Positions 2,031 through 39,550 of a DNA stretch of 64,000 nucleotides are shown here, in pieces (position 1 is the first letter of the stretch; each line of letters begins with the position of its first letter). This DNA comes from Solemya velum gill symbiont (GTDB lineage: Bacteria; Pseudomonadota; Gammaproteobacteria; Chromatiales; Chromatiaceae). The notes below the pieces were generated by a model. The model was given only the letters and a program-made list of their open reading frames with translations, made no database searches and was not told the origin of the DNA. The translations under genes and the position numbers were made by a program. The stretch is from contig NZ_JRAA01000001.1 in assembly GCF_000787395.1 (NCBI RefSeq), forward strand, positions 930,001-994,000, in the 5' to 3' direction.

Positions 2031-2040
2031 GTGCCTCTCC

Positions 2041-3399: not shown

Positions 3400-3502
3400 G
3401 ACCGTCTCCAGACTTATTGTTGAGTTAATGAATGGACTTCTGGAAATACATTATATGATTGCATTTCCAGAAGAACCCGTACAAGGCCCTTAAGGCGAGA
3501 AA

Positions 3503-3527
3503 AGGCGGTGCCGACCCGGCACCACCT
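3503..3527 (-). terminator. Hairpin between pstS and pstC (terminator or attenuator)
   Basis: On the minus strand an 11-bp stem (AGG-C/A mismatch-GGTGCCG with loop ACC when read on the plus strand) is followed by CTTTTCTC, i.e. a short U tract. It lies 40 nt after the pstS stop and 104 nt before the pstC start. A partial terminator here would give more of the periplasmic binding protein than of the membrane subunits, a common arrangement in ABC importer operons. The U tract is short, so complete termination is unlikely. Confidence 0.6.
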
Positions 3528-3566
3528 CCTCATTATCATGTGCAAACAATGCACATGGCAACCTGC

Positions 3567-21648: not shown

Positions 21649-23135
<1,487 letters not shown>

Positions 23136-24138: not shown

Positions 24139-24604
24139 CGACATTCGAGCTGCCGAAGCGCTGGCAAAGAAGATCTGGCGTAACCATTACAAGGTAATTC
24201 TCAGCCACGAACAGATTGAATTCATGCTGCGCCGATTTCAGTCTATGGCGGCGATGAAAGAGCAAATTGATGCCGGATACCACTACTACCTGGTCTCCGA
24301 CAGGCAAAAGGCACTTGGCTACTTTTCATTCCAGTTACGCGGGCAGGAACTGTTTCTGAGCAAGATCTATATCGACGCCGACTATCGCGGCAAGGGCGCT
24401 GGTTTCTACGCTTTCGATTTCATCGAGAAACAGGCCCTCAAGCTTGGCGCAACAGCCATCACGCTGACCGTCAACCGGCACAACAGCAGTGCACTGGCCA
24501 CTTATCAACGCTGGGGAATGGTCATCACTGGCGAACTGGTGACCGACATTGGCAACGGCTTTGTGATGGATGACTATTGCCTTGAGAAACAGCTTGGCAA
24601 CTGA
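24077..24604 (+). CDS. GNAT family N-acetyltransferase
   Basis: A 175-aa acetyltransferase of the GNAT fold. The acetyl-CoA loop is IYIDADYRGKGAGFYAFDFI (about 97-116; Q/RxxGxG/A), and the later strand and helix ITLTVNRHNSSALATYQRWGM form the typical motif B region. The first 20 codons overlap the 3' end of the transglycosylase gene in another frame, which fits translational coupling. A later start would shorten the N-terminal strand, so the overlap start is kept. Substrate unknown: amino group of a small molecule, peptide or protein. Confidence 0.83.
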   Translation: MKNKNSNNPSPFSITSFASDNDIRAAEALAKKIWRNHYKVILSHEQIEFMLRRFQSMAAMKEQIDAGYHYYLVSDRQKALGYFSFQLRGQELFLSKIYIDADYRGKGAGFYAFDFIEKQALKLGATAITLTVNRHNSSALATYQRWGMVITGELVTDIGNGFVMDDYCLEKQLGN

Positions 24605-24628
24605 ATAGCTCGCATATAAGCTTCGTGG

Positions 24629-24826
24629 ATGAAATATATCAAGCTTCTGACAATTCCATTTCTCGCCATATGTCTTGGTGGCTGTATCGTCGGTGAAACT
24701 GCGGCCTTCGTGGTCAAGGCGCCGTTTGAAGTGGCCGATGCCGTCATACCGGGTTCTGCAGGTGATGCTGTTGAATCAACCGGCGAAGCTGCCGCCTGGG
24801 TGACTGACGCGGTGATTCCTTTCTGA
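24629..24826 (+). CDS. Small lipoprotein (DUF6726-like)
   Basis: A 65-aa predicted lipoprotein: signal peptide MKYIKLLTIPFLAICLGG, then the lipobox Cys (LGGC, about residue 19). The mature part of about 47 residues is small and amphipathic, with alternating hydrophobic stretches (FVVKAPFEVADAVIP, AAWVTDAVIPF). I recall similar small lipoproteins in gammaproteobacteria under a DUF number near 6726; that is memory, not a search. It is the last gene of the plus-strand run starting at the DUF350 gene and is convergent with the ferredoxin reductase gene. Confidence 0.7.
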   Translation: MKYIKLLTIPFLAICLGGCIVGETAAFVVKAPFEVADAVIPGSAGDAVESTGEAAAWVTDAVIPF

Positions 24827-24868
24827 CAGCCGTCAATAAACAGCAAGGCACTTTCGCCTGACAACAAA

Positions 24869-25732
24869 CTACTGGAACGTCAATTCTGCCCAGCGTCCCT
24901 CACGGGCCAACTGCTTCCTTAACGCCTGCCAGGCGGCTTCCGAACCCGCCACTTTACTCATCACCTTGTCCAGTACGGCGACCTGCTTTTTTAATCCGGC
25001 AAGATAGACGTAAGTATTTGGCTCCTGCATCAGCGCCCAGGTCTCAGCGCTGTTTTCAGCCAGGCTGTTCCCCAGTGCGACGGAAGCATCCATACGGGGA
25101 CGCGGGTTGATGGCACTGTATGCCTTGAAAGTCGCCTCATCGTAGTAGTTTGTCAGGTCACTGTTCTGGTCGTTCATGTATAGCGTGTCCAGACCACTTT
25201 TGGCGCCGTAGAAAAGTCGAACCTTTCCCTGCCAGTCCCCGTGCTGGTCGTAGATCGATTTAACCAGGGTACGGAACGGCGCAATCCCCGTGCCTGTGCC
25301 GATCATCAGCAGGTTGCTGCCCTTGTCGGCCGGCACTCTGAATGCCGCCTTGTAGGGTCCGGTAATAGTAATCTGCTCACCGGGTATCGCATCACACAGG
25401 TAATTGGAAGAGATACCAGGGTAACTCTCGCCCGACACCTCGTCAATGTAGAAACAGCGTCTCACGAGAATTTCTATCTCCACGTTTTCAGCATCTTCCG
25501 TGTGCATGCCTGCAATCGTGTAGTAACGATGGTGAAATTCATTCCCGAACGGGTGTGGGCCTGGCACCAGAACACCGATATTCTGTCCCGCCATGCAGCG
25601 AAATGCCGGCTCATCGATGGACAGGTGCAGTTCACGGATCTCATCGGTGTTGTCAGAAGTAATACGCTTGCTAGATTTAACCGTGGCCTGGCAGCTATTG
25701 CCAAGAGCCTCTTCCAAGTTTATATCTGTCAT
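24869..25732 (-). CDS. Ferredoxin:NADP+ reductase-type flavoprotein
   Basis: A 287-aa FAD/NAD(P)-binding reductase of the plant-type FNR fold. FAD is bound by HHRYYTIAGMH (RxYT/S-x-x motif, about 67-77). The pyridine nucleotide site shows GTGTGIAPFRTLV (about 142-154), FYGAKSG and YLAGLKKQ. The C terminus ends WAELTFQ, without the terminal Tyr of chloroplast FNR. No 2Fe-2S motif is present, so it needs a separate ferredoxin or flavodoxin. It is the last gene of the rnf-PFOR cluster (55 nt after the small Cys-rich gene), suggesting exchange of electrons between cluster ferredoxin and NADP(H). Alternative: an NADH-using reductase such as BenC or a methane-monooxygenase-type component. Confidence 0.82.
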   Translation of the reverse strand: MTDINLEEALGNSCQATVKSSKRITSDNTDEIRELHLSIDEPAFRCMAGQNIGVLVPGPHPFGNEFHHRYYTIAGMHTEDAENVEIEILVRRCFYIDEVSGESYPGISSNYLCDAIPGEQITITGPYKAAFRVPADKGSNLLMIGTGTGIAPFRTLVKSIYDQHGDWQGKVRLFYGAKSGLDTLYMNDQNSDLTNYYDEATFKAYSAINPRPRMDASVALGNSLAENSAETWALMQEPNTYVYLAGLKKQVAVLDKVMSKVAGSEAAWQALRKQLAREGRWAELTFQ

Positions 25733-25786
25733 ATCGAATCCCGTATAAAGTAGATCATTCAGTCAGTACGCCGCAAATTCACGTCG

Positions 25787-25975
25787 CTATTTCTGTTTCT
25801 TGCATGAACCGCCACTGCCGCATTGACAGGAAGATCCGCACCCTGAGCCCTCTTCCCGCGGCGGCCCGAATTCCGGGTGACGCATGGCATATTGTCGTGT
25901 AATCCACTGTACGACAACCCATACCAGGAAGAGCAGGGGCAGAGCCAACATCGCAACAAGATAATCTCGCATCAT
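25787..25975 (-). CDS. Small Cys-rich single-span membrane protein next to rnfA
   Basis: A 62-aa protein: one membrane helix (DYLVAMLALPLLFLVWVVVQW, truncated here to its core about residues 5-25), a basic/polar connector (TRQYAMRHPEFGPPREE), and a Cys/Gly tail GCGSSCQCGSGGSCKKQ with four Cys. The ATG overlaps the rnfA stop (TGATG), with GGGAG 4 nt upstream; a second ATG follows directly. The layout (one helix plus cytoplasmic Cys tail, tied to an NqrD/NqrE-type gene) is like NqrM, the factor that matures the Fe site of Na+-NQR. By analogy it could deliver iron to the RnfA/RnfE cluster. That role is inference; no sequence identity to NqrM is claimed. Confidence 0.8.
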   Translation of the reverse strand: MMRDYLVAMLALPLLFLVWVVVQWITRQYAMRHPEFGPPREEGSGCGSSCQCGSGGSCKKQK

Positions 25976-26556
25976 CAAGCTCCCAGTCCTGCAAAACCCA
26001 TAAATGCCAGTGACAACACGCCACCGAGAATCAGGCTCAGCGCAGCACCCTGTGTCACACTTGGCAGCTTCGCCAACTCCAGTCTCTCGCGCAGACCGGC
26101 CATCAGTACGATAGCAAGGATAAAGCCGGCACCGGCACCAAGCGCATAGACGACCGACTGGATAAAATTGTACTCCTTGAAGGTCTGGAATAGTGCCAGC
26201 CCAAGAATTGCGCAATTGGTCGTGATCAGTGGCAAAAAGATGCCCAGCGCGCGAAACAGCGCAGGTGAAAGCTTCTTCATCGCCATCTCCACCAGCTGTA
26301 CAGCCGATGCAATTACTGCAATATAACTGATCAGGCGCAGGTACTCGATATCGAACGTCACCAGTACCTGGTTGATCGCATATGCACATACCGAGCTCAC
26401 CAGCATGACGAATGTGGTTGCCAGGCCCATTGGCACGGCTGTCTCCAGCTTCCCCGAAACCCCGAGGAAAGGGCACAGCCCAAGGAACAGTGCTAACACG
26501 AAGTTATTCGCCAGGAATGCGTTAAAAAATATAAATGAAATGCTGTTAACTTCCAT
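25975..26556 (-). CDS. rnfA: Rnf electron transport complex subunit A
   Basis: Integral membrane subunit of the Rnf ferredoxin:NAD+ oxidoreductase (193 aa). The start at 26556 has AGGAGG at 6 nt; the longer open frame overlaps rnfE and is ignored. Six helices, with the conserved Cys-bearing segments FLGLCPFLGVS (about 25-35) and ITTNCAILG (about 107-115). In the homologous NqrD/NqrE and Rnf structures these Cys hold a membrane Fe-S centre shared with subunit E. It overlaps rnfE by 11 nt and the small Cys-rich gene by 1 nt on the other side. Confidence 0.95.
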   Translation of the reverse strand: MEVNSISFIFFNAFLANNFVLALFLGLCPFLGVSGKLETAVPMGLATTFVMLVSSVCAYAINQVLVTFDIEYLRLISYIAVIASAVQLVEMAMKKLSPALFRALGIFLPLITTNCAILGLALFQTFKEYNFIQSVVYALGAGAGFILAIVLMAGLRERLELAKLPSVTQGAALSLILGGVLSLAFMGFAGLGA

Positions 26557-27199
26557 GCACTGCCTCCTCGTCACCGGACAGTTCCTGTTTGCGCACCTTG
26601 AGCCATTCAAAAAAGAGCAACCAGCCGCCAAGTACTATGAAGCCTCCCGGTGGCAGCACCATAACAATCCATGGCTGGAAACCATCGCCAAACAGGGGCA
26701 AGCCAAACAGTGAACCGTTGCCTAAAATTTCCCGCACGACACCGAGACACAAGAGCGCAAGTGTAAAACCGAGCCCCATGCCGAGACCATTGACGACCGA
26801 CTTCATGGGCGTATTGCGGGAAGCAAACGACTCGGCCCGCCCGAGGATCATGCAATTGGCAACGATCAGCTGGATAAACGCGCCGAGCGCATTGTAAAGA
26901 TCGAGACTGATGGCCTGGATGACATAATCGACTATGGTGACAAAGGTGGCGATGATGACGATGTAGGTCGCGATCCGGACCTCTTTCGGGATCAGCTTGC
27001 GAAACAGGGAGACGAGCACACTCGAGGCCAGCAGGACAAAAGTGGTTGCCACTCCCATCGCCAGTGCATTCACGGCAGAATTGGTCACCGCGAGAACCGG
27101 ACACATACCCAGCAACATGACAAACACCGGATTATCGCGCCAGATCCCTTCGAGAAAGGTCTCTGCGGTGATGCGATCATCCTGTTTGAGCAGGCTCAT
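26546..27199 (-). CDS. rnfE: Rnf electron transport complex subunit E
   Basis: Partner of RnfA in the membrane (217 aa). Six helices; the paired Cys motifs are LLGMCPVLAVTNSA (about 30-43) and LIVANCMILGRAES (about 112-125), which complete the shared intramembrane Fe-S site. A conserved PPGGFIVLG segment is near the end. The start overlaps the rnfG stop by 4 nt. The C-terminal 20 residues are polar and cytoplasmic (FEWLKVRKQELSGDEE). Order G-E-A matches the rnfCDGEA(B) operons of clostridia and some proteobacteria rather than the E. coli rsxABCDGE order. Confidence 0.95.
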   Translation of the reverse strand: MSLLKQDDRITAETFLEGIWRDNPVFVMLLGMCPVLAVTNSAVNALAMGVATTFVLLASSVLVSLFRKLIPKEVRIATYIVIIATFVTIVDYVIQAISLDLYNALGAFIQLIVANCMILGRAESFASRNTPMKSVVNGLGMGLGFTLALLCLGVVREILGNGSLFGLPLFGDGFQPWIVMVLPPGGFIVLGGWLLFFEWLKVRKQELSGDEEAVHGS

Positions 27200-27879
27200 G
27201 GCTGCGCTCCTTCCAACTCTTCGAGGTATGGCTGAATTTGCGGAAGCAGTTGCTGCGCACTGGCATTGATGGCCTTGGCAACCGCGTTAGATGAAATCGT
27301 CGCACCGGTTATAGCATCAACCTCCCACGGGTTCGTCTTGGAACCCTTCTTGACGAGGACGACCGCGTTCGCCAGTGCTGTAGCATCGGAATTGAGCCTG
27401 ACATCCAGCGCATCGAAGTTGGCGACAAAGTTCTTGTCGGTAATGATCTTGTCACCCAGCCCGGGCGTCTCCGCCAGCTTGATCACCTTGATACCGGTGA
27501 CGCATTCGCAGGCCGGCTTGTAGCCATAGATCAACTGAATGATATCGGCATAGCCTTGTGCTGCGCCCTCGGCCGCCAGGCCAATAAAGCTGTTCTCGCC
27601 ATCATAACCGGCATAGACCCTTGTGCCTTCGATCCCGGGCGCAACAGGAACCAGTGCATCCTCGGTCAACAGCATCGGCGTGAAGCTCTCGGCACCCGGA
27701 ATCACCTGCAACACCGCCTGTTCGATAGCAAGGCGCTTGTTTTCGGCAATCACCGGCTTGGTCGCCTGGTAGACAAATACAACCAGGAAGCCTGACAGAG
27801 CCGTCACCAACCCGAGGGTCAATATCATTGCCGTGCTGGTTGTTTTGTGAGCCCTGTCGACTTGCGGATTATCGCTCAT
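27196..27879 (-). CDS. rnfG: Rnf electron transport complex subunit G
   Basis: Membrane-anchored flavoprotein subunit with covalently bound FMN on the periplasmic side (227 aa). One N-terminal helix (about 18-38), then the periplasmic FMN domain. The flavinylation motif is DAITGATISSNAV (S/TGAT, about 190-202), where the last Thr takes FMN in known RnfG/NqrC proteins. The substrate of an ApbE-type flavin transferase is implied, but no apbE is in the window. Two Cys (ACECVTG) are not family hallmarks. Overlaps rnfD and rnfE by 4 nt each. Confidence 0.95.
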   Translation of the reverse strand: MSDNPQVDRAHKTTSTAMILTLGLVTALSGFLVVFVYQATKPVIAENKRLAIEQAVLQVIPGAESFTPMLLTEDALVPVAPGIEGTRVYAGYDGENSFIGLAAEGAAQGYADIIQLIYGYKPACECVTGIKVIKLAETPGLGDKIITDKNFVANFDALDVRLNSDATALANAVVLVKKGSKTNPWEVDAITGATISSNAVAKAINASAQQLLPQIQPYLEELEGAQP

Positions 27880-28925
27880 GGCGATTGCTCCTTGCGTCGC
27901 GCCCCGAAAACCCGCGGCTGGGTCATCGCATCGATAAGGGGCGTGGCCGCATTGCCCAGCAGGATGGCATACATGATTCCTTCAGAGAGGCTGCCGAATA
28001 CACGGATTACAACTGTCAGAAAACCGATCAGCAGACCGTAGATCATGACGCCCCTCGCCGTGACTGGGGAGCCGACCATGTCAGAAGCCATGAACATCGC
28101 GCCCAGCATCAGGCCGCCTGAAAGCAGCATGAAGAGTGGATCGGGATACTTGTCGGCATCCACCAGGTAGAGCGCCCCGGATGTGACTGTCACGCCGATA
28201 AAAATCCATACCGGGATACGCCAGTTCATCATGTTGCGAAACGCAAGATAGAGACCGCAGACGAAAATCAGCAGGGCAGAGGTCTCACCGGCAGAGCCCG
28301 CGGTCATACCGGTCAACAGCTCCATCGCCGCTGTCTGCGTATCCTGAAACTTCTGCAGCCCGAGTGGCGTTGCACCGGTAAAGCCGTCGACTGCCACGCT
28401 GCTTGCCCATGCGGAGATATCCGGCGGCATCATGAAGGGCATCGTCAGCGTTGTCGGGATAAACTGGGTAAATCGCCCGTCAAAAAAGGCCGGTGTCCAG
28501 GTCGTGATAGCGACAGGGAAGGCTGCCTGTACAAAAGCACGCCCCACCAGGGCTGGATTGAAAACATTGAAACCGATACCACCAAAAACCATCTTGCCCA
28601 TGGCCATGCCGACAAAGCCGGCAACTACACCCATCCATAACGGAAAACCGGGAGGCAGCGTCAGTGCCATCAAGATGCCGGTAATCACTGCAGACCAGTC
28701 ACCCAGCGAACTTGTCCTGTTACTCATCCAGTTGAAGAAGCGCTCTGTGGCCAGGCAGGTCAACGTCACCACCAGCGTCAGTGCCAGCACACTGATGCCG
28801 AACTGGTAAATTGCAAAAGCCAGGATCGGCAACAGGGCAAACACGACGTTCCGCATGATGACCGGAACCTCCTGCGGCCTTTTCACGTGCGGTGCCGTAT
28901 GCAATACGATAGGCTTGCGCGACAT
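27876..28925 (-). CDS. rnfD: Rnf electron transport complex subunit D
   Basis: Integral membrane flavoprotein of Rnf (349 aa), homologous to NqrB. Multiple helices; the covalent FMN motif is DGFTGATPLG (about 187-196), in a loop between helices. Conserved GFNVFNPALVGRAF (about 118-131) and SDMVGSPVTARG (about 285-296) mark the family. The ATG overlaps the rnfC stop as TGATG. With RnfG it carries electrons across the membrane, coupled to ion movement. Length and motifs are normal. Confidence 0.96.
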   Translation of the reverse strand: MSRKPIVLHTAPHVKRPQEVPVIMRNVVFALLPILAFAIYQFGISVLALTLVVTLTCLATERFFNWMSNRTSSLGDWSAVITGILMALTLPPGFPLWMGVVAGFVGMAMGKMVFGGIGFNVFNPALVGRAFVQAAFPVAITTWTPAFFDGRFTQFIPTTLTMPFMMPPDISAWASSVAVDGFTGATPLGLQKFQDTQTAAMELLTGMTAGSAGETSALLIFVCGLYLAFRNMMNWRIPVWIFIGVTVTSGALYLVDADKYPDPLFMLLSGGLMLGAMFMASDMVGSPVTARGVMIYGLLIGFLTVVIRVFGSLSEGIMYAILLGNAATPLIDAMTQPRVFGARRKEQSP

Positions 28926-30286
28926 CAGGCTGTTGCCTTCCTGTTTTCATTGTTAATGCTCTTTGCGATACGGAAGTACTGCACCAGCGGAATATTCGAA
29001 GGACAGACAAAACTGCAGCAACCGCATTCAAAACAGCTGTTGAGATTGAACTTCTCCTGCATCGCCGTGTATTCACGCTTCTCGGCGAGCCACACCATCT
29101 GGGCGGGATTGAGGCGCATCGGGCAGGCATCCACGCAACGGCCGCACTTGATACAGGGAAACCGGGTGCCACGCTCACCTTGCTCTTCAATGAATCTGCG
29201 CTCCCGGAATACCAGCACACCCGAGGTGCCCTTGGTGACAGGAACCTCCAGTGAGGCGATTGACATACCCATCATGGGGCCACCCATGATGACCTCTTCA
29301 TATTCGGCTTCCACCCCCACCTGCTCGAGGATAAAACTGACCGGAGTACCAATCGGCACAAGATAGTTACCCGCCTTCTCCATGCCGGATCCGCTCACAG
29401 TGATCACCCTTTCGGTCAAGCCCTCACCGCTGGGCAGAAGCCTGCCAAGCTGTGCCAAAGTACCAACATTGTTGACCACCACACCAACATCAATAGGCAG
29501 CCCACCAACCGGAACCTCGAGTCCAAGCAGTGATTTGAGCAGCATCTTTTCAGCGCCTTGTGGATACTTGGTTTCCACCAATTCGACACTGATCGGATCG
29601 TTATCCGTCAGCTTTTCACGCAGTAGCCGGGCCGCATCGGCCTTGTTATCCTCGATACCGATGATCGCCCGCTTCGCTCCCGTGATGCGCAGGGCATAGC
29701 GAACGCCCTGGAGCAGATTCTCTGGTTGCTCAAGCATGACACGATGGTCGCAAGTCAGGTAAGGCTCACATTCACAGCCGTTGACTACCAGCACCTCGGC
29801 CTGCTTCTCCTCGGGCACCTGCAGTTTCACATGCGAAGGGAAGGCAGCACCTCCAAGCCCGGCAAGGCCGCTGTTCTGCACTCGCTTGATGAGCTCGTCC
29901 CTGTCCAGTTGCATCGGATCCACGGGATAGCTCTCCAGCACCTGTTGCGAGGCCGCCTCGTAGACCTTGATGACGATCGACAATACCTTTGGACCTGCCG
30001 CACTGTGCATCAGGTCAATCGCCTCGACGATACCGGTAGCAGGAGCATGCACGGGCACTGAGAAAAAACCGTCAGCTTCTGCAATCAGCTGTCCGCGAAC
30101 AACCTCCTGTCCGGCCTTGACCACTGGCACAGCGGGCGCACCGATATGCTGGGACACGGGCACGATCAGTCGCGGAGCAAAAGCCATCCGCCTGATCTCC
30201 TTATCGCACGTTATTCCCTTGTGATAGTCAGGGTGTACACCGTGCTCGAAATGGCCCTTGCGAAACCTGTTAAACAACGGGAACAT
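28925..30286 (-). CDS. rnfC: Rnf electron transport complex subunit C
   Basis: Peripheral NADH-handling subunit (453 aa from the ATG at 30286; a GTG at 30301 gives 5 more residues). Visible: the N-terminal RnfC head (GVHPDYHKGITCDKEIRR), a biotin-lipoyl-like segment about 45-80, the NADH/FMN region GLGGAAFPSHVKLQ (about 145-158) and VVVNNVGTLAQLG, and two 4Fe-4S sites near the C terminus, CIKCGRCVDACPMRL and CFECGCCSFVCPSNI (about 378-430). It starts only 15 nt after the stop of the +1-frame ferredoxin domain of PFOR, evidence that translation normally runs through that domain. Confidence 0.95.
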   Translation of the reverse strand: MFPLFNRFRKGHFEHGVHPDYHKGITCDKEIRRMAFAPRLIVPVSQHIGAPAVPVVKAGQEVVRGQLIAEADGFFSVPVHAPATGIVEAIDLMHSAAGPKVLSIVIKVYEAASQQVLESYPVDPMQLDRDELIKRVQNSGLAGLGGAAFPSHVKLQVPEEKQAEVLVVNGCECEPYLTCDHRVMLEQPENLLQGVRYALRITGAKRAIIGIEDNKADAARLLREKLTDNDPISVELVETKYPQGAEKMLLKSLLGLEVPVGGLPIDVGVVVNNVGTLAQLGRLLPSGEGLTERVITVSGSGMEKAGNYLVPIGTPVSFILEQVGVEAEYEEVIMGGPMMGMSIASLEVPVTKGTSGVLVFRERRFIEEQGERGTRFPCIKCGRCVDACPMRLNPAQMVWLAEKREYTAMQEKFNLNSCFECGCCSFVCPSNIPLVQYFRIAKSINNENRKATA

Positions 30287-30301
30287 AAAAGTCAGTTCCA
30301 C

Positions 30302-30625
30302 CTACTGGTACTTCGCGGCCCGTTGCACCAGCTTCTCCAGGCCCGGTTCATCCGGGTTGAAAGGTGTTCCAGGGTGCAGGCAACCGGCCGTGCATTTCTC
30401 CGCGGCCCTGACAATATCCTTGAATGCGCCACCGGTCGGATTGATCACGACGGCCTGCTTGTTGTCATCATAGGCGAAGATATTCGGATTGATCTCTATG
30501 CACTCATCACAGGTTGTGCACTCGGGCGTTTCTACCCAGACGGGTTCAAAGTCCGTCGCACCATTGCCGCCACCTGCTGCTGTGGCAGCCGTGCCAGTGT
30601 CTCCTGTTGCACCATCCAGCAGGCC
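30302..30625 (-). pseudogene. Ferredoxin domain in +1 frame, displaced C-terminal part of PFOR
   Basis: Continuing from the PFOR gene in the +1 frame gives about 107 codons: a Gly/Ala/Thr linker (GLLDGATGDTGTAATAAGGG), then a small 4Fe-4S ferredoxin with CTTCDECIEINPNIFAYDD and EKCTAGCLHPGTPF, ending in TAG at 30302. No ATG, GTG or TTG precedes the first Cys in this frame (a TGA blocks it upstream), so it cannot be a separate gene with an ordinary start. Removing one base (T30626 on the plus strand) joins MAAG directly to GLLDG in a natural way. Sequencing error, a true mutation or recoding are all possible. Confidence 0.8.
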
Positions 30626-33600
30626 TGCCGGCCGCCATACCCATGAGCGTGGCAGTCAGCTGCTGTGCCACCTCGGCCTTGGCCGTGAGTTTGACCTCAT
30701 CCATGTTGACGACCTGGTCGACACCAGCCAATGACTTGAGCTGGCGCCAGAAGCTGCGACGCTCCTCTGTTGACTTGACCATCTCCTGCGATACCAGCAC
30801 CCGCATCAGGCGGTTCTTGCCATCCACGCCCCAGATATAGGGAAACATACCATCACGCTCATCCTCGTCCAGGTCGATGAACTCATGCAGTTGAATCATG
30901 CTGTCGTTCCAGGTTTCCGGTGGCGCCTGGCGGAAGTTTTTGCGGAAACGCCCCTCTGTCATGGCGAAATCGGCAAAGGTCATGGGCACATCCATATCCT
31001 TCTCTTCACCCTCTTCGTCAATGTAATTCAGCGTATAGGTGGGCCAATCCTCGTCAAGCGACGGGTTACCCTCGATATCTGAACAATCCATCAGGGTTTC
31101 GCCAGCATCCGGATCGTAGCGAAACAGCGGGTAGGCGCGTGATTCGACCGCCATTTTGCTCTGCGCCTCGGAGGCATCGTCGCCCACGCCGTGTTCCGGT
31201 TGGCACACGGCATAGAGATTGAACAAGGCTGGGCGACGACTGTTGAGGCCGTCAACGAAACCTTCGATCATGTGTGTCATGTTGGATATCGCGCCCTGCA
31301 GTACATATGAGGTACGGTGCGCCATACCGATCAGGCTGATCTCCTTGCGAATCTCCTCTTTACCTTTCCAGGCCTTGCCGTACGGTGCCATATCAGACAC
31401 CTGGCCGATGAAACCTGAAGTACATGCCTGGCCGCCGGTATTGGAGTAGACCTGGGTATCAAGCACCAGCATCTTGACCGGCATACCTGACATCAGGGCA
31501 CGCGACAGGTTCTGGAAACCGATGTCATACATGGCGCCATCACCGCCGACAGCAACAACCGGCGGGCACAGGTGCCACTCGTCATCACTGAACTGCTTCC
31601 AGTTGAAGTAAGTGAAGAAGTTGTTGTGCTCGGCAGGGTCATACTTGTCAGCAAGGATGAGCTCGGCCTTGCGAATCGCCTTGAAGCCCCCGGCCATTTT
31701 TGCCATGTGGCCTTCGAAGATACCCATCGCCATGGATGGTGCATCCTGGAACAGGTGGTTGGCCCACGGGAATGGATAAGGGTTATAGGGGAAAGTTGAA
31801 CCCCACACCGAGGTACAGCCGGTTGCGTTGATGATGCCCATCTCTGCACGACCCTGTTTTGTCTGACCCTCGGTATATTTCCACTTGAGATCACGCAATG
31901 CATCGAGCAGGGCAGTGATCTCCTTGAGCCACTCCTGGTTCAACGGGCGAGTGTCGCTATCTTCTTCCAGCGTGTGCGACAGCGTGCCAAGAGTAAGATC
32001 CTGCTCTTGGTTGCTATCAATGGCATTGCGGAAAGCCTCGGTGTTATCCAGATCGATATTGTCGGCAAGCGTCATGCACACCCTTGTTTCCAGCTGGTTA
32101 ATCAGCCCGTCAATCTTTTCCAGATGGTTCTGGATGCGTGGCTGCAACAGTGCGGTAACAGTTGCGGTGAACAGGTGCACACTGGTTTTTTCACCACAGC
32201 CAAGACAGGCGCCGTCACCCGACAACATTGCATTGTAGTTGCGCTTGTCCAGCAGCAGGGTTTCCAGCGCTCCAATCTTTTCATCGAGATCATCGATACG
32301 GATAAAGTCCGGATTGGTGCTGGGCAGATCGAGCCAGTAATTCCACTCCCTGCGCATGCGCTCAATGCTCTCCTCCGTCTGGGTTACCGCAATCAACGCC
32401 TCATCGTCACAAACATCGATACACTCCATACAGCCCTTGCAGGTGTAGGGATTGATGGTAACGGAGAAGAGTCCGCCACTACCTTTCTGACGCTTCTCAC
32501 GTGTCGAGTAGTAGGGCTTGGTAATTGAGAAGCGGAAGTCACCAATGGTCTCCATCAGGCGGGTAAATTCACGCTCCAGGCTCTCTCGCTCTTTGCCTTG
32601 CAGCTCAGACTCGGCCAGTGTTTCAAGAACTGCATGATCGATCAGCTTACTGACATCCGCCTCTTCGCCGTTCTGCTCGATCAGGTCTCTCAGTTTTTTC
32701 TCAACGCTTCGCACCTCGCGACGCAGGAAGCGTGTCGGATTGCCACCGCGCTCGATTCGCATGATGGTTGAGTTGAATATCTCGGAGATAGAGTTGACCA
32801 GGCCGGGTATCGCGCTATCCGGGCAGACACTGTAGCAATCACCACACGCGGTACATTTTTCCGCAATGAACTCCGGGTACTCGAAGCGAATCTGTGTCAT
32901 GTCGCGGTAAAAACCTGTTGCCACCGGCGTCAGGCCGGTCGCCATGTAGGGGTCGGCGAGGTTGTCGTTGCCCTTTCCTGAAATGTAGAAGCTGCCGGTC
33001 TGCTCCCAGAAGCGGTGAATATCGGAAAGACGGCCATCCCCCTCAGGCAACTGCTTGAGCATGACGGGCAAGTTGCTCGCTTGCCTGCGTACCTCGTCCG
33101 GGGTGACACCAACAGTTTTTTCAGTAATCTCGACAATCTCGTCAAAGCCGCGGCGCACGACCTTGAGGTTGTCCTGGACCACGCGCGCACCCTTGCTACC
33201 AAACTTGTCCTGCAACTGATTTTCGATCGCATCGAGGAGGGTCTCCTCGGTCATGTTGTTGCGCTCCATCAGTGGGGAAGCAGCAAAGAACGCACCCTGG
33301 AAGGCGTTGCCTTGCATACGGAACTGCAATTCAGGATTGGTGGCCTCTTCCCTCGCTATCCTGAAACCGTCAACGTAATAAATGCGGATGCCGTGTTCAA
33401 CGATGTACTGCTGTGCCTGGCGTGGAATCTGTGCCCACACCTCCTCGGGTGTATCCAGGTTGCTCTGGATAATGAATACGCCGCCATTGTCGAGTCCATG
33501 CAGCGGGTTGGAGTGCTGGAATACATTCGGATCAGGGGATAACACCACGTCAACGTAATGGTACTCGCAATTCAGACGGATCGGTTCGGGGGCCGCAGAG

Positions 33601-35216
33601 AGATAGTATGTCGTCGGCTGGCCTTTCTTCTCCGAGCCATACTTTGGATTCGCCTTGATATCAAAACCGAGGAGCTCGTAGAGTGTCATGACAAGGTTCT
33701 TGCCGGTCGTTATGGCTCCCCATCCGCCAACCGAGTGCATGCGCACGGTAATCGAGCCTTCGGGCATCAGGTTGGGATTCTCGCTGCCGTCAATGGCAAG
33801 ATCCTTGATCTGCGGATAACTCGACACCAGGTCGGTGAGGTGAATCTCCTGTTTCGGTGTTGCGGCCTCGCGGTAAAATTCGATACCGAGATAGAAGAAA
33901 CGCTTGTTCTTGCCATCCGGCAGCATGTTCTCGATCGCACCGATGAGCGCGGAAGGTTGCAGGTCGCGGCTGCCAAGACCATAACTGCCTGAATAGAGAG
34001 CCGGAGCATCACTTGCCTTGCTGTAACTCACATAATCGGGGAATGGAAGCTCTCCGTCTGCCGTGCCGTTTTCCAGGCTCTTGGCAATCACCGAACGCAC
34101 CTCGCGCATGACAGGCAAATCTTCAGCCAGCGGCTGATCGGTACGCTCCAGTACCACGCAGCCCTTTTTGCCCTTCAGCACCTTGCTGACGAGATCACCG
34201 GGGAACGGACGGTACATGGTGAGATTGATCACACCAACCTTGAGCTTGCGTGTCTCACGCAGATAGTCAACAACAGCCTCGGCCTGCACGATCATGCTGC
34301 CCTGGCCGAAAATGACATACTCGGCGTCATCACAGCGATACTCGGCAATACGCCCGTAACTGCGGCCGGTGAGTTCAGTGTACTCAGCCATCACCTCTTC
34401 GCTAATGTCACGGATGTGGTCGAAAAAATAGGGGCGCTGTGCTGCGGTTGCCTGCATGTAGGCATCCTGGTTCTGCACCGTGCCCGCTACCATCGGATTA
34501 TCGACTGTCCAGACTTCCGGAACACGGCGGCGCTTCGGACCGTAGATCATCTCCTGTGCAGGAGTCGGGCAATCAATCATGTCGGCCGGATAGCCGAGAA
34601 ACTCTTCGATAAGTTCACGCTCTGGTACCTGCAATGGCTCGATCAGGTGAGTCGTCAAAAATCCATCCTGGGCGACAGCGGCAGGTGTTAACGACAGTTC
34701 GGCGATCTTGCGTGCAATCAGGTTAAGATCGGCTGCTTCCTGTGCATCTTTGGAAAAGACCTGGAAGAAACCGGTATCGTCGATACAGTGGTAATCATCA
34801 TGTCCGCAGTGCACATTCAGGCTCGCCTTGGTAATTGCACGGCAGCCGATGTTGAGAATGTAGGGCAGGCGCTTGCCGACAGCGGCGTAAAGCGACTCGT
34901 GCATGAAAGCAACACCCTGCGCGGAAGAGAAGTTTGTTGCACGCAATCCCGACATCGACATGCCTGCTGTCAACGCGGCGGCGGCATGTTCAGATTCAGG
35001 TTCGACAAAAATCAACGGCTGCCCGGCAGTATTGACATGTCCTTTGGCAACCTCTTCAGCCCAGTATTCGCCCATCTGTGTCGATGGCGTAATCGGGTAG
35101 GCGCCCGCTGCATCAGAGGCTTCGCGCTCGCACATGATGACAGCAGCGTTGCCGTCCATCGCCATGCGCGTACCCGGGTACTTGACAGCTGGTTTTGATT
35201 TCTTGTTTCCGAACAT
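30546..35216 (-). CDS. Pyruvate:ferredoxin (flavodoxin) oxidoreductase, very long form
   Basis: Single-chain PFOR, which interconverts pyruvate + CoA and acetyl-CoA + CO2 with ferredoxin (1556 aa, against about 1170-1200 for NifJ). Domain order as NifJ: alpha (AYPITPSTQMGEYW, about 38-52), domain II (about 240-420), gamma (HSVGGWGAITTGKNL, about 500), two-cluster ferredoxin domain (CTACGDCYSVC near 789, CKGCMECIDVC near 925) and the TPP domain (GDGACLGCGEK near 1005, GDGAMYDIGFQNL near 1230, NTGGQACTSG). Helical insertions separate the two Fe-S motifs and split the start of the TPP domain. The last 24 codons (AGWCNRRHWHGC...) are the wrong frame: a ferredoxin domain continues in +1. Start ATG with GAGAGG; 27 nt after rnfB. 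Confidence 0.93.
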   Translation of the reverse strand: MFGNKKSKPAVKYPGTRMAMDGNAAVIMCEREASDAAGAYPITPSTQMGEYWAEEVAKGHVNTAGQPLIFVEPESEHAAAALTAGMSMSGLRATNFSSAQGVAFMHESLYAAVGKRLPYILNIGCRAITKASLNVHCGHDDYHCIDDTGFFQVFSKDAQEAADLNLIARKIAELSLTPAAVAQDGFLTTHLIEPLQVPERELIEEFLGYPADMIDCPTPAQEMIYGPKRRRVPEVWTVDNPMVAGTVQNQDAYMQATAAQRPYFFDHIRDISEEVMAEYTELTGRSYGRIAEYRCDDAEYVIFGQGSMIVQAEAVVDYLRETRKLKVGVINLTMYRPFPGDLVSKVLKGKKGCVVLERTDQPLAEDLPVMREVRSVIAKSLENGTADGELPFPDYVSYSKASDAPALYSGSYGLGSRDLQPSALIGAIENMLPDGKNKRFFYLGIEFYREAATPKQEIHLTDLVSSYPQIKDLAIDGSENPNLMPEGSITVRMHSVGGWGAITTGKNLVMTLYELLGFDIKANPKYGSEKKGQPTTYYLSAAPEPIRLNCEYHYVDVVLSPDPNVFQHSNPLHGLDNGGVFIIQSNLDTPEEVWAQIPRQAQQYIVEHGIRIYYVDGFRIAREEATNPELQFRMQGNAFQGAFFAASPLMERNNMTEETLLDAIENQLQDKFGSKGARVVQDNLKVVRRGFDEIVEITEKTVGVTPDEVRRQASNLPVMLKQLPEGDGRLSDIHRFWEQTGSFYISGKGNDNLADPYMATGLTPVATGFYRDMTQIRFEYPEFIAEKCTACGDCYSVCPDSAIPGLVNSISEIFNSTIMRIERGGNPTRFLRREVRSVEKKLRDLIEQNGEEADVSKLIDHAVLETLAESELQGKERESLEREFTRLMETIGDFRFSITKPYYSTREKRQKGSGGLFSVTINPYTCKGCMECIDVCDDEALIAVTQTEESIERMRREWNYWLDLPSTNPDFIRIDDLDEKIGALETLLLDKRNYNAMLSGDGACLGCGEKTSVHLFTATVTALLQPRIQNHLEKIDGLINQLETRVCMTLADNIDLDNTEAFRNAIDSNQEQDLTLGTLSHTLEEDSDTRPLNQEWLKEITALLDALRDLKWKYTEGQTKQGRAEMGIINATGCTSVWGSTFPYNPYPFPWANHLFQDAPSMAMGIFEGHMAKMAGGFKAIRKAELILADKYDPAEHNNFFTYFNWKQFSDDEWHLCPPVVAVGGDGAMYDIGFQNLSRALMSGMPVKMLVLDTQVYSNTGGQACTSGFIGQVSDMAPYGKAWKGKEEIRKEISLIGMAHRTSYVLQGAISNMTHMIEGFVDGLNSRRPALFNLYAVCQPEHGVGDDASEAQSKMAVESRAYPLFRYDPDAGETLMDCSDIEGNPSLDEDWPTYTLNYIDEEGEEKDMDVPMTFADFAMTEGRFRKNFRQAPPETWNDSMIQLHEFIDLDEDERDGMFPYIWGVDGKNRLMRVLVSQEMVKSTEERRSFWRQLKSLAGVDQVVNMDEVKLTAKAEVAQQLTATLMGMAAGRPAGWCNRRHWHGCHSSRWRQWCDGL

Positions 35217-35243
35217 TGTTGATGCCTCTCGGATTAGTAATGA

Positions 35244-35687
35244 TTATGCACGGCGCAGCGGCAAGGCTTGCTTGCGAATAATGCTTTTTGCCTTTGCCCC
35301 TTTCTCGATTTCGTCTTTCTGGTTAATCCAGACAATGGCTCCCGTCGGACAGCGTTCAATGCCGACCCTGGAAGCAAGAGCATTCTTTCTGTAGTCGATA
35401 ACTGCAAGGTTATCTTTGATCGTAATCAGCCCTTCAGGTGAGTCAGTGGCACAGCGTTCGCATGCAGTACAGGCGACTTCACATTCAATCTCGGCGTCGT
35501 CATCTGAATCGAGATTTTTGCAGGCTACCCACAACCGGTGGCTCACCGGGTGCAGTTCAAAAAGCTGTCTCGGGCAGATCTCGACGCAGTCGCCACAGGC
35601 CGTGCACTTCTCGCTGTCCACAATCGGCAATTGCCTTGCTGTTATCGTGCGAGTTGACAGTGCATTGCCCTGGCTGGACATCACCAA
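35244..35687 (-). CDS. rnfB: RnfB-like protein, C-terminal ferredoxin part (frameshifted)
   Basis: The open frame covers the ferredoxin half of an RnfB-type protein. Real coding probably begins near 35630, where it takes over from the N-terminal fragment; the first 20 or so codons of the frame overlap that fragment and look non-coding. Visible: LPIVDSEKCTACGDCVEICP (first 4Fe-4S site), CEVACTACERCATDSP (second, with one Cys-Pro step altered to DSP), and RCPTGAIVW near the end. A basic tail ends KQALPLRRA. Sites of this kind pass electrons from soluble ferredoxin to the Rnf core. Adjacent to PFOR (27 nt), the likely ferredoxin reducer. Confidence 0.75.
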   Translation of the reverse strand: MVMSSQGNALSTRTITARQLPIVDSEKCTACGDCVEICPRQLFELHPVSHRLWVACKNLDSDDDAEIECEVACTACERCATDSPEGLITIKDNLAVIDYRKNALASRVGIERCPTGAIVWINQKDEIEKGAKAKSIIRKQALPLRRA

Positions 35688-35901
35688 CGATCAGTTTTTC
35701 TGCGAAAATACGGCAGCCGGCCTCGCCACAGGCGCCGCAGTTGGTATGCGGAAGGGCGGATTCAACCTCATCGATGCGAGGATCCTGGAAGACGAACAGG
35801 AAGCGGTTCGCAATAACCAGCAAAGCGGCAAGAACAACGCCAAGGGCAAGCATATACCCAAGGGCAATGGCCATGTCCGAATTGAAGATCGTCGAAATCA
35901 C
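35557..35901 (-). CDS. rnfB: RnfB-like protein, N-terminal membrane and first Fe-S part (frameshifted)
   Basis: A GTG at 35901 with AGGAG at 5 nt starts a frame with one membrane helix (ALGYMLALGVVLAALLVIA, about 12-31) and the RnfB cluster motif TNCGACGEAGC...QC (Cx2Cx4Cx16C, about 54-80). From about codon 85 onward (DCGQREVHGLW...) the reading is wrong and ends at 35557, while the ferredoxin domain continues in the +1 frame. One extra base around 35625-35645 explains both. RnfB is the entry point for ferredoxin electrons. Its place before PFOR, not next to rnfA or rnfC, is unusual. Confidence 0.78.
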   Translation of the reverse strand: MISTIFNSDMAIALGYMLALGVVLAALLVIANRFLFVFQDPRIDEVESALPHTNCGACGEAGCRIFAEKLIVGDVQPGQCTVNSHDNSKAIADCGQREVHGLWRLRRDLPETAF

Positions 35902-35967
35902 CGCCACTCCTGTATTTCGCACCGCACAAATCGACTAACAAATTACTGTGCCTAGTGCAATGCAACA

Positions 35968-35981
35968 ATGACATACATCAA
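35968..35981 (-). promoter_or_regulatory. Possible FNR/CRP-like site upstream of rnfB
   Basis: On the minus strand TTGAT-GTAT-GTCAT matches one half of the FNR consensus (TTGATnnnnATCAA) exactly and the other in 3 of 5 positions. Its centre is about 73 nt before the chosen rnfB start. Anaerobic control of the rnf-PFOR cluster would make sense, but a single degenerate site is weak evidence. Confidence 0.3.
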
Positions 35982-36143
35982 TAGAATTTCATTATACACT
36001 CTACCCGAAATGGATAGGCTGGCCTTCCCAAATGACATAATTCAGTGAGGCCGCGGGGAGTGACGAGCGGTAAGAGACGTGCAGAAGGGCGGGAGAAGTT
36101 CCCGCACAGCCAAAAGGAGCGATGGATGAGATACCTGATTCAG

Positions 36144-36506
36144 TCAGGTCAGTGCATCACGGAGATTCGTATCGATCCACTCGGTAATCCAGTGCATCGG
36201 TTTCGCGCTTGAGAAACGCGCAACTTCCTCACCTTGCCAGAATGCGATCACGGTCGGAAAACCACGCACCAGGTATTTGCCCGCGAGACGCATGTTCTCG
36301 CCCTCGTCCACCTCCAGCTTGGCCAGCTCTACTGCACCATCATGCTCCTCAATCGCTCGATAGAGATGTGGCGCAAGCGCATGACAAGGCCCGCACCAGT
36401 CAGCCCAGAAATCAACCAGAACGGGTTTTGTTGCAGAGGCATCGAGAACACGTGCCTGGAAGTCATGTTCGTCGACGTCGAATATCGCCTTACTTTCAGT
36501 TTTCAT
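36144..36506 (-). CDS. Thioredoxin-fold protein (co-chaperone-like thioredoxin)
   Basis: A 120-aa cytoplasmic thioredoxin with the active site FWADWCGPCHALAPHL (CGPC, about residues 38-41) and the cis-Pro loop GFPTVIAFW. The start at 36506 (MKTESKAIFDV) is preferred; the open frame upstream runs through a tandem repeat and is not coding. The N-terminal strand FDVDEHDFQARVLDAS and the acidic surface resemble the first domain of YbbN-type proteins rather than TrxA, but the TPR-like tail of YbbN is missing. Divergent from hemB; downstream of it on the same strand lies the rnf-PFOR cluster 220 nt away. Confidence 0.85.
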   Translation of the reverse strand: MKTESKAIFDVDEHDFQARVLDASATKPVLVDFWADWCGPCHALAPHLYRAIEEHDGAVELAKLEVDEGENMRLAGKYLVRGFPTVIAFWQGEEVARFSSAKPMHWITEWIDTNLRDALT

Positions 36507-36540
36507 CGATTTGGGTAAAAAATAGAAAGGCGTAGGGTAC

Positions 36541-36565
36541 AAGGTGCAAGGTGCAAGGTGCAAGG
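36541..36565. repeat. Heptamer tandem repeat AAGGTGC
   Basis: Three perfect copies of AAGGTGC (36541-36561) followed by a partial AAGG, with a related GGTAC just before. It lies in the 133-nt gap between the divergent thioredoxin and hemB genes. Such in-register heptamers can change copy number by slippage. Its place suggests a neutral spacer or a phase-variable spacing element for one promoter. Confidence 0.75.
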
Positions 36566-36612
36566 GCATGACTGACAAGTGCATCCAACAACAGTTACAA
36601 TGCTAAGGTTGA

Positions 36613-37659
<1,047 letters not shown>

Positions 37660-37665
37660 AAGAGT

Positions 37666-38478
37666 ATGTTCTGTAAATATGCCGTGATTGGCAACCCTAT
37701 TGAACACAGCAAGTCGCCAGAAATTCATGCCGCCTTTGCCGAGCAAACCGGTGAAGAGGTGCTCTATACCCGCATCCTCGGCGACATGGAAGATTTTAAC
37801 GGCGACGTACATGATTTTCTGAATGACGGCGGCTGCGGTCTCAATGTCACGGTACCTTTCAAGGAACGCGCCTTTCAGATGGTTGACGACCTCAGCGAAC
37901 GTGCTGAACTTGCCGGATCGGTGAATACACTAATTGTGGCTACAGGCAATGAACTGCGTGGCGATAACACGGATGGTGTCGGCCTGATCACAGACCTGGC
38001 GAAAAATCACGGTTTTGAATTCACCGGCAAACGTATCCTCGTCGTTGGGGCGGGTGGAGCCACTCGCGGCATCATCGCGCCACTGCTCTACAAGAATCCC
38101 GTTTCAGTCACCATCGTCAATCGTACTGTCTCCCGTGCCGAGGAGCTTGCTCTCCGTTTTGTCAATTATGGCCCCGTCGCCGCGTGCGGTTTCGATCAAC
38201 TTGGCGGTAAATTTGATCTCATCATCAATGCCACCTCGGCCGGTATCCATGGAGAGGTGCCGCCTCTTCCGGACGGGTTGCTGGCAGAAGATGGATGGAC
38301 ATACGACATGATGTACAGCAACGAGCCAACCGCATTCGTCAAATGGGGCAAGGCACAAGGCGCAGCAATCTCTCTTGACGGTCTCGGTATGCTGGTAGAA
38401 CAGGCGGCGGAATCCTTCTGGTTATGGCGCGGTGTACGCCCTGACACTGCACCAGTGATTGCCATGCTGCGCGAATGA
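37666..38478 (+). CDS. aroE: Shikimate dehydrogenase (NADP+)
   Basis: Reduces 3-dehydroshikimate to shikimate with NADPH in aromatic amino acid synthesis (270 aa, usual length). Substrate domain: GNPIEHSKSPEIHAAFAEQ (about 9-27) with the SxS motif; LNVTVPFKERAF holds the catalytic Lys; GDNTDGVGL the Asp. NADP domain: GAGGATRGIIAPL (about 127-139) and the NRT phosphate-binding NRTVSRAEELA. The C terminus LDGLGMLVEQAAESF is typical. Starts 6 nt after hemB; overlaps rlmH by 4 nt. Confidence 0.97.
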   Translation: MFCKYAVIGNPIEHSKSPEIHAAFAEQTGEEVLYTRILGDMEDFNGDVHDFLNDGGCGLNVTVPFKERAFQMVDDLSERAELAGSVNTLIVATGNELRGDNTDGVGLITDLAKNHGFEFTGKRILVVGAGGATRGIIAPLLYKNPVSVTIVNRTVSRAEELALRFVNYGPVAACGFDQLGGKFDLIINATSAGIHGEVPPLPDGLLAEDGWTYDMMYSNEPTAFVKWGKAQGAAISLDGLGMLVEQAAESFWLWRGVRPDTAPVIAMLRE

Positions 38479-38945
38479 ATATCCACCTGATTGCTGTTGG
38501 TACACGTATGCCTGCATGGGTGACACAAGGCTACGAAGAATACAGCAAGCGCATGCCACGTGAATGCAGTCTCAAGCTTGTTGAAATCGCCCCCGGGCAT
38601 CGTGGTAAAAATGCGAGTATCGAAAAAGCGATTGAAGATGAAGGCAAGCGCATGCTTGCAGCCATTCCCAAAGGCGCAAACGTGATTGCCCTGGATGAAA
38701 AAGGCAAGTCCTGGTCAACCATGCAGCTCTCCAAACAACTTGATGGCTGGCTGCAGCAGGGGAGTGATACTGCCCTGCTGGTTGGCGGGCCTGATGGCCT
38801 CTCGGCATCCTGCCGCGCAAGTGCACGTACCAGCTGGTCTCTCTCCGCCCTGACGTTGCCGCATCCACTTGTGCGGGTATTACTCGCCGAACAACTCTAC
38901 AGGGCCTTGTCGGTTCTGAACGGTCATCCCTATCATCGTGAGTGA
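38475..38945 (+). CDS. rlmH: 23S rRNA (pseudouridine1915-N3)-methyltransferase RlmH
   Basis: SPOUT-class methyltransferase that modifies pseudouridine 1915 of 23S rRNA on assembled ribosomes (156 aa; E. coli 155). The knot region has LLVGGPDGLSASCRASA (about 102-118; homologues usually have GG.dG), then WSLSALTLPHPLVRVLLAEQLYRA. The C terminus HPYHRE matches the family end, which is essential for cofactor binding. Start overlaps aroE (ATGA), end overlaps maf by 8 nt. Confidence 0.95.
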   Translation: MNIHLIAVGTRMPAWVTQGYEEYSKRMPRECSLKLVEIAPGHRGKNASIEKAIEDEGKRMLAAIPKGANVIALDEKGKSWSTMQLSKQLDGWLQQGSDTALLVGGPDGLSASCRASARTSWSLSALTLPHPLVRVLLAEQLYRALSVLNGHPYHRE

Positions 38946-39528
38946 GTCACTCCTGTCCGCCCAACACGTCGTACTTGCATCGGCATCACCTCGTCGCCTT
39001 GAACTGCTCCGGCAAATTGGCATCACTGCCGATGTGCATCCCGCCCATATTGACGAAACACCATTTGATAAAGAGGCGACTGCTGACTACGTGATACGCA
39101 TGGCGAGAGAGAAAGCGGCAGCTGTCGCTTCCAGCTACACAGCGGATGACAGGATTATTTCGGCAGATACCAGCGTCATCCTCGACAACAGGATTTTGGG
39201 CAAACCACGTGACGCCGAAGATTTTATCTCCATGTTCATACAGCTTTCAGGACGCATGCATGAAGTCCTCTCTGCCGTCTCACTGGTGACCGACGGCCGG
39301 CATGACGAAATGCTAAGCAGTAGTCGTGTCTGGTTTCGTGATATTTCAGAAGCAGAGATCCTGGCTTACTGGGAGACCGGTGAACCAGCCGACAAGGCTG
39401 GCGGATACGGCATACAAGGTAAGGGAGCGCTGTTTATTGAGAAGATTGAAGGGAGTTATTCTGGCATTATGGGGTTACCCCTGTATGAAACCGGGCAGCT
39501 GTTACAGCGAACCGGATATAAACTATAA
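38938..39528 (+). CDS. maf: Maf family nucleotide pyrophosphatase (dTTP/UTP type)
   Basis: House-cleaning pyrophosphatase that hydrolyses non-canonical or excess nucleoside triphosphates (196 aa). Maf hallmarks: VLASASPRRLELLRQIG (about 12-28), the MAREKAAAV block with Arg/Lys contacts, IISADTSVILDNRILGKPRD (catalytic Asp and the KP motif), and GEPADKAGGYGIQGKGALFIEKIEGSYSGIMGLP, whose AGGYGIQG pattern is the YhdE (dTTP/UTP) subgroup type. The start is GTG at 38938 inside rlmH. rng follows after 22 nt, the conserved maf-rng pair. Confidence 0.95.
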   Translation: MSESLLSAQHVVLASASPRRLELLRQIGITADVHPAHIDETPFDKEATADYVIRMAREKAAAVASSYTADDRIISADTSVILDNRILGKPRDAEDFISMFIQLSGRMHEVLSAVSLVTDGRHDEMLSSSRVWFRDISEAEILAYWETGEPADKAGGYGIQGKGALFIEKIEGSYSGIMGLPLYETGQLLQRTGYKL

Positions 39529-39550
39529 CTAAAAGGAAAGGGTAAAACCG

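Follow-up and report, generated by a model that had tools for sequence, protein, structure and literature searches.

Why does the gene for a very large pyruvate:ferredoxin oxidoreductase (PFOR) lie inside an operon for the Rnf complex, and is the set a working energy module in the genome that carries it? The question is raised by nine genes in a 64,000-nt stretch of the Solemya velum gill symbiont genome (contig NZ_JRAA01000001.1, positions 930,001 to 994,000; hereafter the window, in whose numbering coordinates are given unless another contig is named). We consider it fairly probable that the window contains a copy of a widespread rnfB–giant PFOR–rnfCDGEA cassette that was gained by horizontal transfer and has since been damaged; intact copies of the cassette would form an ion-coupled pyruvate:NAD unit with a tethered ferredoxin. 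The first impression of a novel and complete module thus needs correcting: the arrangement was already in print in 2014, and the window contributes one more member, which seems to be of foreign origin and defective.

A widespread rnfB–PFOR–rnfCDGEA cassette

The nine genes lie on the minus strand and run from about 35922 to 24869 in the order rnfB, giant PFOR, rnfC, rnfD, rnfG, rnfE, rnfA, a gene for a small Cys-rich protein and a gene for an FNR-type reductase. Coordinates and profile matches bear out the gene order, shared strand and gene families given in the initial annotation. The products of rnfC (28925..30301; TIGR01945, 505.5 bits against a cut-off of 245.95), rnfD (27876..28925; TIGR01946, 288.9 against 207.05), rnfG (27196..27879; TIGR01947, 102.7 against 102), rnfE (26546..27199; TIGR01948, 234.6 against 213.4) and rnfA (25975..26556; TIGR01943, 239.9 against 229.3) each scored above the NCBIfam cut-off for an Rnf subunit, and these scores together with the conserved order across homologous loci rule out a chance or mis-annotated cluster. 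Of the eight junctions, most of which were said to overlap or touch, five overlap or come close to touching: by coordinates, rnfC and rnfD overlap by 1 nt, rnfD and rnfG by 4, rnfG and rnfE by 4 and rnfE and rnfA by 11, with a 2-nt gap between rnfA and the Cys-rich gene. Wider gaps separate rnfB/PFOR (27 nt), PFOR/rnfC (244 nt in the current frames) and Cys-rich/FNR (54 nt).

The homologous loci studied here are the best 80 of at least 493 confirmed relatives found in a scan of named genomes, and the counts describe this best-scoring part of the family. Hits were counted on one strand within 13 kb. Too short a flank excluded 25 of the 80 loci from the downstream count and 15 from the upstream count. 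A search for PFOR between rnfB and rnfC, as the initial annotation had proposed, returned the linkage throughout: rnfC, rnfD, rnfE and rnfA were found at 55/55 loci with >6.3 kb downstream and rnfG at 54, in the order and strand of the window, while the C-terminal half of rnfB was found at 65/65 loci with >1.3 kb upstream and the N-terminal half at 64. Only one locus (L063) had no hit to the N-terminal half of rnfB or to rnfG. At the score limits applied, the Cys-rich gene (45/55 loci) and the FNR gene (22/55) were found less regularly. The result named beforehand as refuting the partnership, relatives whose PFOR and rnf genes always lie apart, did not turn up. Among loci with rnfA, a motif search gave hits at 51/59, one of which (L016) is evidently in the wrong frame.

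The titles of the carriers include Sedimenticola, Thiodiazotropha, Chromatiaceae, Ectothiorhodospira, Rhodocyclaceae, Gallionellaceae and Shewanella. Linked rnf genes were also present in metagenome-assembled genomes that are labelled, as given, Acidobacteriota, Hydrogenedentota, Kiritimatiellota, Verrucomicrobiota and Spirochaetota (L059, L063, L080, L081, L082); the short contig of a Bacteroidota-labelled one (L079) gave no rnf hit. The rnfB–giant PFOR–rnfCDGEA set is a widespread cassette.

Nor is the arrangement unreported, as had been supposed. An rnfBCDGEA operon of the Solemya velum symbiont in which rnfB2 and rnfC2 enclose PFOR genes was described in 2014, with pyruvate as the proposed electron donor (PMC4287430). 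Compared by description, this rnf2 operon shares the gene order and the proposed PFOR–Rnf link with the window, whereas a fused ferredoxin, the FNR, the Cys-rich gene and damage are not among the features mentioned in the part of that paper that deals with the operon. In Endoriftia, Rnf is described as clustered with genes of the reductive tricarboxylic acid cycle, alongside several PFOR isoforms (PMC11636981), and Rnf and 2-oxoacid:ferredoxin oxidoreductase (OFOR) genes are named for Thiomargarita, with no mention of linkage in the relevant passages (PMC4914600, PMC4853749). The window shares subunits C, D, G, E and A with the Rnf described from Azotobacter and Clostridium (PMC12174285) and differs from it in having an interrupted rnfB and a PFOR inside the operon.

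A ferredoxin domain fused to PFOR

Intact members of the family are PFORs to which a ferredoxin-I-like [4Fe-4S] domain is fused by a linker. The domain was encoded in the PFOR frame at 78/78 homologous loci with a hit, and at the other two of the 80 (L053, L078) the sequence ends 59-67 nt past the PFOR match. Across homologs, the stop-to-stop frames of the giant PFOR span 1601-1749 amino acids, and the linker, as we delimited it in 69 sequences, has 20-67 residues (median 37; 28% Ala, 17% Gly). The Pfam family Fer4_13 was matched by 24/24 domain homologs at E values up to 1, the first member scoring above the cut-off (34.9 versus 24.5 bits), and the best solved relative of the domain profile was ferredoxin I of Desulfovibrio africanus. 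When the homologous domain of one locus (L004) was modelled with AlphaFold, the model had a mean pLDDT (predicted local distance difference test) of 92.2, and its first match in the PDB was the same ferredoxin (1fxr; root-mean-square deviation 0.8, template modelling score 0.85 on the target).

The giant enzyme resembles the D. africanus pair (1b0p, 1fxr) in its NifJ-type core and in the ferredoxin I fold of the fused domain. It is longer, and the partner that is built in here is separate in D. africanus, where the PFOR–ferredoxin I complex is described as low-affinity and transient (PMC10052474). A literature search that covered few subscription papers found no description of a fused ferredoxin in a giant PFOR. 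A family with a built-in ferredoxin inside rnf operons may be useful in that it yields a direct and testable prediction, that of a channelled PFOR–Rnf complex.

Proposed mechanism and direction

Where the cassette is intact, the PFOR core, which is NifJ-like, carries its own ferredoxin on the Ala/Gly-rich linker, and this tethered domain would most likely shuttle electrons, in either direction, between the core and RnfB. Rnf couples electron transfer between ferredoxin and NAD to ions, and its membrane part would here use that transfer to move ions or be driven by them. The whole set may then act as a single ion-coupled pyruvate:NAD unit that is reversible in principle. The PFOR–ferredoxin–Rnf partnership first suggested from gene order gains support from the conserved linkage and from the ferredoxin domain fused to homologous PFORs. 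Gene order and its conservation, the fusion, the conserved cluster and TPP-motif residues, the empty site, the discordant phylogeny and the interrupted frames are observations; direct ferredoxin–RnfB delivery, the pyruvate substrate, the ion coupling, the direction and the disabling or weakening effect of the interruptions described below are inferred.

The alternative that survives best concerns direction, and it falls only somewhat short of an even chance: the unit may run mainly in reverse, in which case Rnf would draw on NADH and an ion gradient to supply reduced ferredoxin for the reductive carboxylation of acetyl-CoA. Many hosts are titled sulfur oxidisers or purple sulfur bacteria, and a PFOR has been argued to act as a carboxylase in Kentron (PMC6593406), while the oxidative direction was proposed for the Solemya velum symbiont (PMC4287430). 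Pyruvate dehydrogenase E1 scored above the cut-off in 31 of 38 relatives, which means that an oxidative route exists without PFOR; in itself the count is uninformative on direction. Isocitrate lyase, a rough clue, did not clearly split carriers from non-carriers, with two-part hits in 5/12 relatives that have an orthologous giant PFOR and in 2/10 same-family relatives that lack it, numbers too small to tell direction.

Somewhat more doubtful is a stronger form of the mechanism, in which PFOR, the tethered ferredoxin and Rnf would make up one membrane-bound pyruvate:NAD+ ion pump whose ferredoxin would stay attached to the enzyme at all times, swinging to and fro between RnfB and the core of PFOR. 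Such a pump might be a solution shared by sulfur oxidisers and purple sulfur bacteria, and a second, 29%-identical subtype might work in the same way beside a KorAB-type 2-oxoacid oxidoreductase.

Substrate of the giant PFOR

The giant PFOR-like 2-oxoacid:ferredoxin oxidoreductase of the window (30546..35216, 1556 amino acids) scored above the Pfam cut-offs for POR_N (156.8 bits), PFOR_II (50.7 bits) and POR (101 bits), and its closest solved structures are PFORs (6cin, 7plm and 1b0p). A structure predicted for residues 766-1530 had a mean pLDDT of 69.5. Twelve Cys residues, the GDG Gly and the Asn of the thiamine pyrophosphate (TPP) site, the Thr of YPITPS and an Arg in the position of the PFOR substrate-site Arg were conserved in 75/75 sequences. 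By the D. africanus assignment, we take the Cys residues to ligate three [4Fe-4S] clusters, and the TPP-motif residues, the Thr and the Arg presumably have the roles of their counterparts in that enzyme. Because all of these are kept, the giant PFOR probably converts pyruvate, with other 2-oxoacids possible.

That the enzyme acts instead on a 2-oxoacid other than pyruvate, which would make the set a 2-oxoacid:ferredoxin oxidoreductase–Rnf unit, seems to us unlikely. This alternative draws on the equivalog model TIGR02176, whose cut-off of 911.35 bits the protein missed with 425.5, and on the identity of only 27-30% between giant PFORs and the 1,200-residue NifJ-type proteins of the same genomes. 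The host also has a NifJ-type protein (C3:398591) and a separate OFOR alpha-like gene (C1:297984) elsewhere. Against it stand the PFOR structures as best solved relatives and the invariant Thr and Arg, the roles of which are presumed as above; these two residues are shared by other OFORs.

Origin of the module

A genome that groups in the same genus (G001), with a HemB 99% identical to that of the window, has no copy of the module. Positions 1-313 of its contig 46 correspond to window positions 24514-24826 and positions 369-4218 to 36171-40000, so that the window stretch 24827..36170 is absent, the two flanking matches lie 55 nt apart, and the genes for the lipoprotein and the thioredoxin on either side of the module are direct neighbours at this empty site.

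The window PFOR is about 85% identical to those of Thiothrix and up to 74% identical to those of the host's own relatives. In a quick tree it was sister to four Thiothrix-genus sequences, with a support of 100 in the Shimodaira–Hasegawa-like approximate likelihood ratio test, and forcing it together with six Sedimenticola-type sequences cost 296 log-likelihood units and was rejected by the approximately unbiased test (p = 2.9e-68). The constraint group was named only after the first tree had been seen, and that tree left out L084 (the host's own genome) as well as L087 and L089, which were taken for copies of L011 and L013. HemB of the window showed a different kinship, being 80-81% identical to that of five Sedimenticola-type genomes, 76% and 78% to two others and 72% to one Thiothrix. 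Since the empty site in the sister genome is combined with a PFOR that groups with Thiothrix in discordance with HemB, we infer that the module was acquired horizontally from a Thiothrix-like donor.

The giant PFOR was present in 8 of 16 Thiothrix-genus genomes, at 83-85% identity and in open frames of 1644-1680 amino acids. The Thiothrix-genus cassettes, of which the comparison covered L020, the PFOR ends and rnfB of L114 and L115, and the PFOR of L116, are the closest in sequence, and L020 (Ca. Thiothrix singaporensis) has the full order including the Cys-rich and FNR genes; their frames are open where seen, in contrast to those of the window. One Thiothrix-genus genome without the full enzyme (G050) holds a 52-residue match to the PFOR start, 90% identical and with one TGA (C1:3994522-3994680), which is perhaps the relic of a lost copy.

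Interruptions in rnfB and PFOR

The initial annotation had listed all six Rnf subunits and a dedicated module. In this genome neither is supported as intact, as rnfB and PFOR are both interrupted and the sister species has no module. The broken rnfB (35247..35922) consists of an N-terminal frame (35922-35557; PF04060) and a C-terminal frame (35687-35244; 4Fe-4S), which scored 47.4 and 22.8 bits against the TIGR01944 cut-off of 68.7. Alignment with L020 placed a 233-nt gap in the window copy, with a shift of frame, and a 1-nt gap in L020, a net difference of 232-233 nt; the missing middle corresponds to about 75-77 amino acids with six Cys. In two other Thiothrix-genus loci (L114, L115) rnfB is open, at 306 and 308 amino acids, and the middle region is present, while a scripted frame search of L116 found no rnfB frame. 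The two halves share one frame at 70/72 loci; the exceptions are L026 and L013 (Ca. Sedimenticola endophacoides), the latter with its C-terminal half in two pieces.

The ferredoxin domain of the window is out of frame with PFOR. The same comparison placed an 11-nt gap in the variable linker, such that the PFOR frame is correct to about residue 1530 and its final 27 or so residues are out of frame. The relic domain (about 30305..30550) keeps the Cys pattern and is 82% identical to L020 over 82 amino acids. Programmed frameshifting is not favoured in either gene, in view of the multi-base gaps relative to Thiothrix and of homologs that mostly have one open frame (70/72 for rnfB, 78/78 for PFOR).

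The main rival is that the interruptions are errors of sequencing, assembly or strain mixture and that the module is intact in the living organism, which we regard as improbable to much the same degree as a substrate other than pyruvate. In its favour, the relic ferredoxin is well preserved and the remaining genes are open and look constrained: the ratio of nonsynonymous to synonymous substitutions (dN/dS) relative to L020, for the seven in-frame segments with a value, which leave out the two rnfB segments for lack of a dS, ranged from 0.04 (PFOR) to 0.23 (rnfG), with dS near saturation. Gaps of 233 and 11 nt are, however, unlike the usual one-base indels, the assembly has 10 contigs and a completeness of 99.74, and 20/20 chosen flanking proteins matched a Pfam family above the cut-off. 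Because the gaps span several bases, two separate genes are hit and the flanking proteins all match families, we hold real damage to be clearly more probable than error, and in this organism the module probably works only in part or not at all. Provided that the damage is real, the sister pair, one with an empty site and the other with an interrupted copy, would be a clean record of the gain and decay of an energy module.

Several points weigh against an acquired and damaged copy of a pyruvate-coupled ion-translocating cassette. The mechanism is a prediction from sequence; the missed equivalog cut-off makes pyruvate a probable rather than a proven substrate; and a Thiothrix-like donor is likewise only probable, with transfer the other way or a loss in G001 as further possibilities. 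Moreover, the apparent constraint and the well-kept relic ferredoxin are as compatible with damage of very recent date, or with an erroneous sequence, as they are with decay, and the 20 flanking proteins, hand-picked from the longer open frames, provide no measure of the error rate.

Related clusters and the Rnf background of the host

It is very unlikely that PFOR and Rnf are merely co-regulated neighbours served by separate soluble ferredoxins: gene order alone is indirect support for an interaction, but PFOR lies between rnfB and rnfC at every locus counted, its homologs carry a fused ferredoxin, and the 29%-identical paralog also lies between rnfB and rnfC in L104 and L105.

These two loci (G007:C10:85000-104900 and G012:C90:25000-44500) represent a second Rnf–OFOR supercluster. 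L104 contains a KorA-like protein of 633 amino acids, a KorB-like one of 317, a protein of 840 amino acids, rnfB, the 29%-identical giant OFOR of 1564 amino acids and rnfCDGEA. The 840-residue protein contains parts of the giant PFOR, namely Fe-S, TPP and ferredoxin segments, and matched no NCBIfam family. By tblastn, L105 resembles L104, its OFOR and rnfC being separated by about 2.8 kb. Another genome (G006, 69% complete) appears to hold two giant PFOR copies (C198 and C364; 70% and 69% identical to the window).

The host has a second RnfC-type gene, 41% identical, at G000:C3:739133 and therewith probably a second Rnf. A match to NqrM above the cut-off (49.8 bits; G000:C1:454958-455080) makes it likely that Na+-NQR is present besides the two RnfC-type genes.

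Accessory genes and flanking features

The small Cys-rich protein (25787..25972, minus strand) is of membrane type, with 61 amino acids and one hydrophobic stretch. Some of the 29 aligned members end in a CxCxxPC-like pattern, which prompted a comparison with NqrM, and the window member matched no Pfam family above the cut-off. Its identification as NqrM was rejected, as only 2/29 members matched PF04400, at a best E of 0.0028, no such match was listed for the protein of the window, and a profile comparison aligned only 18 columns with a probability of 40%; the resemblance to NqrM appears to be one of layout only.

The FNR-type NAD(P)H/ferredoxin reductase (24869..25732, minus strand; PetH/BoxA-like) scored above the cut-off for PF00175 (40.8 against 22 bits) and below that for PF00970 (19.9 against 21.1), and matched ferredoxin reductases in the PDB with E values down to 7e-35. 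In plant-type ferredoxin:NADP+ reductases the 2'-phosphate site consists of Ser-Arg and a later Arg-x-Tyr. The Arg next to Ser is replaced at the aligned place in 24/24 sequences, 21 of which have an Arg one place on, and the Arg-x-Tyr stretch was not recognisable in the alignment.

Rfam and tRNA scans of the window gave no matches, and a promoter and terminator scan was uninformative, with 5 promoter-like sites against 7.2 expected and 14 terminator-like sites against 10.6 expected. Between hemB and the thioredoxin gene (about 36523-36570) there is a CACCTTG-type heptamer repeat, with matching DNA at G000:C3:648628 and in G001. A hemF gene lies near the module both in the window (22212-23132) and in L020 (1829-2740); the two are 72% identical, yet they stand on opposite sides of the module.

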